In this document: positions 40,044 to 42,094 of the stretch, in pieces
How positions within the stretch are numbered: position 1 is the stretch's first letter
Layout of the letters: the number at the start of each line of letters is the position of its first letter
Assembly (NCBI RefSeq): GCF_021184045.1
Contig: NZ_CP073710.1
Location: forward strand, 1,312,685-1,376,684
DNA length: 64,000 nucleotides
DNA from: Methanococcoides orientis
GTDB taxonomy: Archaea; Halobacteriota; Methanosarcinia; Methanosarcinales; Methanosarcinaceae
Direction of reading: 5' to 3'
Position numbers and translations under genes: made by a program
The notes under the pieces: generated by a model
What the model saw: only the letters and a program-made list of their open reading frames with translations
Told to the model about the DNA's origin: nothing
The model's database searches: none

Positions 40044-41111
40044 TTAAGACTCGTTTTCCTCGAAGTACCTTCTCACAAGCAGCACAAGACTTGAACCAAG
40101 CAGTACCAGCAGGAAGATCGCAATAACCATACCTTCGAGAGTAAAGTCCTGCCACGAATGCACCGAGACCCACATCCCACTGCGGGTAACGAATGTTGCG
40201 AATATGACCAGTATGAAAGATGCAACTGCGAGCATCGGAGCAAGGAACCTGTATTCCCCGTGCTTGACCCTTGTCTGAGAATGCAGATAAGCAGTCGCTG
40301 TTATCCAGGGAATCAGTGACGATGTCTCAACAGGGTCCCATGTCCAGTACCATGCACCCCATCCGAGGACCTCATATGCCCAGAAACCGCCAAGTCCAAT
40401 ACCTGCTGTAAGGAAAAGCCATGCCAGACGCATCCAGTCACGTGATATCTTTACCCATTTCTCATCGTCGATGAGCAACGTAGCAAGAGCAGCGGCAAAT
40501 GGAATGGTGAAAGCTGCATAGCCAAGGAACAACACAGGAGGATGGACTGCCATCCATGGATTTCTCAGAAGCGGGTTCATACCCTGCCCGTCCACAAGCG
40601 GGTATGCTGAGACAAATGGGTTCCAGTTGGAAATGTCAACGTATGCACCTACGCCCCCATAATACATGGAGAACGGATTCTTCAATACCAGCAACATCAG
40701 GAAGACTGTAACGATGCACAGACATATTGCACGTGTGATGTTCATTAGCCTGGTGTCTGACAGCTCTTTTGTGTGGCCTGTATACTGCATTGCCAGAAGC
40801 ATCAGCAGGGTGAACCATGTCCAAAGCAGGAATGAACCTTCCTGGCCTGCCCACAATGCGGAAAGACGATAGACAAATTCAAGGTCGATACTTGAATGCA
40901 TGTAAACATAAACGTAGGATGCTGATACCGTTAGCAGATAGTAGGTAAGCATCAGGATAGCGAGTGTGATGGCGGATGCACATCCAATTTCAAGCTTTCT
41001 GGAAAGTGAACCGGCATGAGCACTATTTGTACGCAGGTGGATGACTGAATATATCGCCGAGCCGGCACCAAGAATAAAGGCAATCCATATGAGGATCATT
41101 CCAAAGTTCAT
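40044..41111 (-). CDS. CcmF-type cytochrome c assembly protein, N-terminal half (CcsA/CcmF family)
   Basis: This 355-aa polytopic membrane protein has about nine helices. The tryptophan-rich heme-handling loop WGAWYWTWDPVETSS with nearby conserved histidines (WMAVHPPVLFLGY; HSQTRVKHG) identifies the CcmF/CcsA heme-handling family. It corresponds to the first half of bacterial CcmF; the second half is the overlapping upstream gene (ATGA). Together they probably ligate heme to apocytochrome c outside the membrane, needed for multiheme cytochromes of Methanosarcinales. Confidence 0.85.
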   Translation of the reverse strand: MNFGMILIWIAFILGAGSAIYSVIHLRTNSAHAGSLSRKLEIGCASAITLAILMLTYYLLTVSASYVYVYMHSSIDLEFVYRLSALWAGQEGSFLLWTWFTLLMLLAMQYTGHTKELSDTRLMNITRAICLCIVTVFLMLLVLKNPFSMYYGGVGAYVDISNWNPFVSAYPLVDGQGMNPLLRNPWMAVHPPVLFLGYAAFTIPFAAALATLLIDDEKWVKISRDWMRLAWLFLTAGIGLGGFWAYEVLGWGAWYWTWDPVETSSLIPWITATAYLHSQTRVKHGEYRFLAPMLAVASFILVIFATFVTRSGMWVSVHSWQDFTLEGMVIAIFLLVLLGSSLVLLVRRYFEENES

Positions 41112-42094
41112 TTCTTACCCCCCTTAGGGCGTTCTGAACCCTTGTTTCTTTTTCCTTTTATCTTAGCCACAGAAGTTGTGGCCTTTCCATCAACTGAATA
41201 ATCGATAAGTCCAAGAACAGCTATGCCTGCGAGCATCAGGAAGAGGCCACCCCAGATGAATGTGATGAATGGCACGGTCCTCACATATATGCTGACCTCA
41301 CCACTGGTCTCGTTTACCGCTTTGGGGGCGATGAAAAGTTCCTCGAATACGCCACGATCCACATAGGTGCTTGTGTACGTCTGGCCCCATTTGAAATCAG
41401 TGATATATTTGATCTGTCCGCTATCAAAATAAGCGCCTTTTTTGTAAACATCGAAATCCACATAGGTTGCATAGGAAGAACCCGGATACTGCTTATACTG
41501 TGAGCCTTCGAAAGCGGAATCCATTCCGGTAACCGATATCATATAGTTCTGCCCTTCGAACTAGCCGGCAGAATCCATGGAAACCACAGCAGAACCATCT
41601 ACCTTCAAATTGCTGCTGGCAACGATCCCTATGAGTATCAGAATTATCCCAAGATGGATAACATGTGCACTGACACCTCGCAGTTTCATTGCACGTGAGT
41701 CACTCTGGAGAGACATATATATCTTATAAAATGTAGCGACCAGAGCCATGCTTACCACAGGCACGGCAACATCAAGAGGAAGGTTTCCGAAAGGAGATAG
41801 AAAAGCAAATGCTATGGAGATTGCAACTGTGAAACCACCAACGAACAAAGTTCTCTTCGCATCGAAATAACCATAAAGCAAGCCCATCGTAAGCAGTACT
41901 ACCAACGCTGCTGTGGGAAGAGCACTCCTGTTGTTAAAATATTCAGCACTCATGCCCATCTCGACGCCTGTGGTCAGCCTGACTATCAGTGGTGTTAACA
42001 TGCCCACAGTTATAAGAGCAGCAAGGAGCAGCATGGTCAATACCGCTGCCAGCATTATATTACTGCTGTTTACGAGGTCTTTGCTTTTTTTCAT
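41108..42094 (-). CDS. CcmF C-terminal-half protein with in-frame UAG (probable pyrrolysine)
   Basis: The frame runs from ATG 42094 to TGA 41108-41110, 328 residues if the UAG at 41561-41563 is decoded, which becomes residue 178. Upstream of it are four to five membrane helices and the CcmF-like segment VSAHVIHLGIILILIGIVASS. Downstream is a beta-rich exterior domain (FEGQNYMISVTGMDS...) and a final membrane helix plus a basic tail. Neither half is a complete protein, and no start with a ribosome site is seen just after the UAG. It overlaps the next gene by ATGA. If UAG is a true stop this is a pseudogene. Confidence 0.8.

Follow-up and report, generated by a model that had tools for sequence, protein, structure and literature searches.

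An in-frame UAG codon in the cytochrome c assembly gene ccmF1 of Methanococcoides orientis, very probably read as pyrrolysine

The gene ccmF1 of Methanococcoides orientis, which codes for the C-terminal half of CcmF, the split cytochrome c heme lyase of archaea, carries an in-frame UAG at codon 178. On the comparative evidence gathered in this study, it is very probable that this UAG is a sense codon, that pyrrolysine (Pyl) is inserted there via tRNA-Pyl, PylS and PylBCD, and that the frame is read on to a TGA. In the mechanism we propose, PylBCD would make pyrrolysine, PylS would charge tRNA-Pyl, which has a CUA anticodon, and this tRNA would insert Pyl at codon 178 by plain decoding. The ribosome would then read on through 150 codons specifying the extracytoplasmic beta domain and the last membrane helix, up to the TGA, whose overlap with the start of ccmF2 would make translational coupling of both halves possible. 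The window, the 64,000-nucleotide stretch of DNA analysed here, falls within one contig of 2,494,162 bases and has ccmF1 on its minus strand. The first-pass annotation of the window had given no strand. The features are as follows.

41108..42094, minus strand: ccmF1 (CcmF C-terminal half), 328 residues with the UAG counted as one residue; ATG at 42094, TGA at 41110-41108
41561..41563, minus strand: in-frame UAG, codon 178, a putative Pyl codon from codon comparison with relatives
41564..42094, minus strand: ccmF1 upstream segment, 177 codons; membrane helices and the start of the extracytoplasmic strand region
41111..41560, minus strand: ccmF1 downstream segment, 150 codons; extracytoplasmic beta domain and last membrane helix
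41108..41111, minus strand: ATGA, overlap of the ccmF1 stop and the ccmF2 start, kept in 11/11 genomes
40044..41111, minus strand: ccmF2 (CcmF N-terminal half, Cytochrom_C_asm domain; Pfam PF01578, 5e-33; NCBIfam nrfE/CcmF, 6e-55)

Minus-strand translation with TAG as O gives 177 codons, the UAG at 41563-41561, 150 further codons and the TGA, which bears out the position and extent of the read-through frame proposed in the first-pass annotation. Under the standard code the gene falls apart into a 180-aa ORF, starting at an upstream GTG, and a distinct 144-aa ORF starting at ATG 41542. The read-through product has a single Pfam match, CcmF_C (PF16327), over residues 15-294 (58 bits, 1e-15), and no methyltransferase domain among its Pfam matches; scored apart, its halves reach 29 and 20 bits. 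The CcmF_C domain, in a gene adjoining that of the Cytochrom_C_asm half, identifies it as CcmF1. In the structure model (mean pLDDT 82), predicted helices precede the UAG at residues 10-42, 50-73, 79-99, 105-129 and 134-162, strands follow it at 184-275 and the last helix spans 277-304. The claim that CcmF-type features flank the codon on both sides holds for the domain match as well as for the model, in which residue 178 belongs to a short strand where the beta domain is entered. The nearest solved structure is that of the heme lyase CcmF, entry 6zmq.

The length of the open frame is a weaker argument. From base composition, the probability of 150 open codons behind a stop is about 2e-3, but at least 150 open codons also follow 18 of 363 TAA- or TGA-ended ORFs of at least 100 aa in a 464-kb sample (the window plus twenty spread 20-kb stretches), so the figure is not compelling by itself. 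What makes the case for read-through decisive is homology and conservation.

Homologues of ccmF1 were found in 79 of the 112 family genomes. When 80 copies were aligned, the UAG column held Thr in 23, Ser in 20, UAG and His in 8 each, Ala in 5, Gln in 4 and Phe in 3, with rarer residues making up the rest (Glu, Asn and Asp twice each; Lys, Ile and Tyr once each). The alignment with homologues, which the first-pass annotation had put forward as a check, thus sets 72 sense sequences against 8 with UAG, and both flanks align gap-free across the 80 genes. The UAG substitutes for a sense codon, with no indel. All eight UAGs in the gene body fall in this single column, any others in the alignment being in upstream leaders or at the frame end. 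One related genome (G110) has a second CcmF-like gene (L081, minus strand), which is fused and full-length and only ~25% identical to ccmF1. No match to the local sequence turned up when viral contigs were scanned.

Within Methanococcoides, 7 of the 10 genomes with the gene have UAG at codon 178 and the other three have CAT (His); one of the carriers, G002, is presumably M. burtonii. In the named collection, the closest ccmF1-bearing relatives are filed under Methanococcoides, with M. vulcani SLH 33 at 90% identity. This genome, which comes from an independent collection and is probably of the same species as our G010, has the same ccmF1 UAG. The eighth UAG belongs to G032, a genome of another genus, g9, which we take to be Methanohalophilus (L080, plus strand, frame from 895, frame codon 188), where the product reads PVOFENLDYNIIVTGM.

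Among the Methanococcoides copies, dN/dS is 0.04-0.15 beyond the UAG in all pairs and 0.03-0.15 before it, with dS at ~1.5-2.8 between the two deepest groups, which indicates strong purifying selection on both flanks of the codon. Such values would not be expected of a pseudogene or of a dead downstream piece. The ATGA overlap was claimed correctly: the distal stop runs into the ATG of ccmF2 in all 11 genomes (ten Methanococcoides and G032), with the UAG present or absent. A nonsense mutation or a sequencing error is accordingly the least probable account of the codon, to the point of being refuted by conservation. In its favour, some residual cytochrome c does form without ccmF1 in Methanosarcina acetivorans (PMC9084895), but the identical codon stands in eight separately assembled genomes and purifying selection continues downstream of it. 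Because relatives have kept the UAG while its surroundings changed, its reading as Pyl is almost certain.

The UAG might also stop translation, with the second half restarting at ATG 41542, nine codons on, and CcmF being made in three pieces. An ATG stands nine codons past the UAG in 6 of the 7 Methanococcoides carriers (the window genome and five relatives), and a weak GAAGGG stretch lies upstream of ATG 41542. However, G002 has ATA instead and the g9 genome has no ATG there either, though both carry the UAG. A restart would lose the strand segment FEGQNY with its invariant Y184, and the gene is continuous in relatives without UAG. We rejected this start on account of the two carriers that lack the ATG, and consider a three-piece CcmF very unlikely.

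The genome has the means to read UAG as Pyl. One cluster (L036) holds pylS, pylB, pylC and pylD, recognized by NCBIfam equivalogs, together with a tRNA-Pyl with anticodon CUA (cta in ARAGORN), so that pylTSBCD, for which a search of the genome had been suggested, is present with its genes adjacent. The PylS equivalog match reaches 707 bits, and PylC was identified by TIGR03909, PF21360 giving no match. PylS scored above the curated cut-off in 13 of 13 genomes tested, all UAG carriers included. There is one full-length copy of aRF1 in the genome, and a search for a second release factor returned, beyond this copy, only two partial matches.

In the 464-kb sample, UAG terminates 4 of 259 ORFs of at least 200 aa (~1.5%) against 30% expected by composition. 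Inspected singly, the UAG-ended ORFs include two plausible genes besides ccmF1; the remainder, judged by eye only, look like antisense or spurious frames. One of the two (L060:17686-18855, plus strand) is FrhB/FdhB-like and also has a YHS domain; its in-frame UAG, residue 345, is spanned by an FrhB_FdhB_C match at 213-364, and the gene is a second Pyl candidate. The third candidate (L069:6236-13174, minus strand) is a gene for a surface-type protein of 2,147 residues; its in-frame UAG is residue 2148, and a PGF-pre-PGF domain and the last membrane segment lie after or across it. The further in-frame UAGs inspected in the window were rejected, as they fall in 5′ leaders before true starts or in antisense frames, which leaves ccmF1 as the sole case of an internal UAG found there.

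Given a complete pylTSBCD set, one aRF1, the depletion of UAG and two more genes with UAG inside a domain-spanning frame, Pyl is the best reading of the ccmF1 codon, and these observations fit UAG being a sense codon in M. orientis. The first-pass proposal of a Pyl codon is supported in this respect and by the sense codons of the homologues; that the inserted residue is Pyl itself, and that the main product is full-length CcmF1, we infer. Coupling of ccmF1 and ccmF2 in translation is likewise presumed from the overlap of the TGA with the ccmF2 start. A 177-residue product without the beta domain could also be formed. UAG is said, in a 2025 report, to mean Pyl genome-wide in certain archaea, Methanococcoides included; as here, the code described there has UAG almost absent as a terminator and several UAG-containing genes.

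A separate observation concerns pylB (L036:6129-7184, minus strand; C1, about 2364.1-2365.2 kb), which has a UAG end just ahead of the pylC ATG (TAGGATGACGACG), and the same end in 5 of 5 readable Methanococcoides genomes. Were UAG read without exception, PylB would be extended by ~43 residues, translated from pylC sequence in another frame. Since such an extension would overlap pylC in the wrong frame, UAG may still act as a stop in places, and the pylB codon is possibly a feedback switch or a true leftover UAG stop.

UAG 178 might instead be an ambiguous, regulated codon. The share of CcmF1 made at full length, and of ccmF2 coupled to it, would then track the level of charged tRNA-Pyl and tie the maturation of cytochrome c to methylamine-dependent growth. 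The single aRF1 could compete for the codon, and a review holds that Pyl insertion needs no cis element and has been proposed as competing with termination (PMC8211752). The start of ccmF2 at the distal stop fits such a scheme, as does the reduced rather than absent cytochrome c of M. acetivorans without CcmF1 (PMC9084895). However, UAG almost never serves as a terminator, which speaks for a fixed sense meaning, and in the three species with CAT no regulation can depend on it. No local mRNA structure beyond that of shuffled sequences was found after the UAG (z +0.86 and -0.09). We regard an ambiguous codon as unlikely; if partial termination were true, CcmF1 and perhaps coupled ccmF2 would hinge on Pyl supply.

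The history of the codon was read from a ccmF1 tree built without the UAG column. G032 groups with sense-codon relatives with full support, and the UAG pattern amounts to three changes on the tree. The likeliest history would be that UAG arose once at the root of Methanococcoides, gave way to CAT in the three-species clade and arose separately in G032, while an alternative with three UAG gains is equally short. A second gain at the same column has a probability of ~1/330 if all columns are taken as equal and of 1/53 if columns as variable or more are counted. The apparent parallel gain is suggestive of a preference for this site, though no proof of it. Selection might even favour Pyl here, its electrophilic side chain, placed at the base of the extracytoplasmic domain, aiding the handling of heme or apocytochrome, or its use tying CcmF1/CcmF2 synthesis to Pyl supply. 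The parallel UAG in Methanococcoides and g9 is what would be expected from this, and we think it a quite improbable explanation; if true, it would give pyrrolysine a function outside methylamine methyl transfer.

At residue 178, in the extracytoplasmic part of CcmF1, Pyl is most likely tolerated as a replacement and neither required nor catalytic. The importance of this residue for heme and cytochrome assembly, at which the first-pass annotation hinted, is unsupported: the column ranks 280th of 332 in conservation, i.e., among the more variable ones, and holds His in the three-species clade. This variability and the apparent reversion to His make it probable that Pyl is tolerated. A catalytic role is unlikely since, in addition, the residue lies outside the catalytic half; in M. 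acetivorans, the heme ligands and the WWD motif are in CcmF2 (PMC9084895).

The same split halves as in M. orientis are known from M. acetivorans as CcmF1 and CcmF2 (MA3305/MA3304), where loss of ccmF1 lowers holo-cytochrome c strongly without abolishing it; the role of CcmF1 in cytochrome c maturation has been described in M. acetivorans only (PMC9084895). The methyltransferases MtmB, MtbB and MttB of Methanosarcinaceae share with ccmF1 an in-frame UAG and Pyl insertion through PylS and tRNA-Pyl. These enzymes invariably have Pyl, as an active-site residue (PMC8211752), whereas ccmF1 encodes a membrane heme-lyase half without a methyltransferase domain, and its site is variable. A further known case is a CobN-like read-through ORF of M. 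acetivorans with an in-frame UAG (PMC1242214). For this ORF and similar non-methyltransferase UAG genes of Pyl archaea, as for ccmF1, homologues show varied sense residues and Pyl appears to be tolerated. What sets ccmF1 apart is that its UAG has been kept through most of the genus and turns up again, in g9, at the very same column. The ccmF1 copies of presumed Methanosarcina type carry Thr (ACT) at the column where M. orientis has UAG.

Pyrrolysine, the 22nd amino acid, has been discussed mostly for methylamine methyltransferases. That ccmF1 encodes a new Pyl protein, one of cytochrome c assembly and not a methylamine enzyme, is well supported by the comparisons made here, and its unusual point would be the parallel gain. 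Standard pipelines would split ccmF1 in two or label it as a pseudogene, an annotation trap for a gene of this kind. CcmF1 is a conserved membrane protein that serves cytochrome c assembly, and its full-length form would be impossible without reading of UAG. The genus has cultured species, which makes it possible to test if UAG there is simply a sense codon and if Pyl supply bears on electron transfer through cytochromes c.
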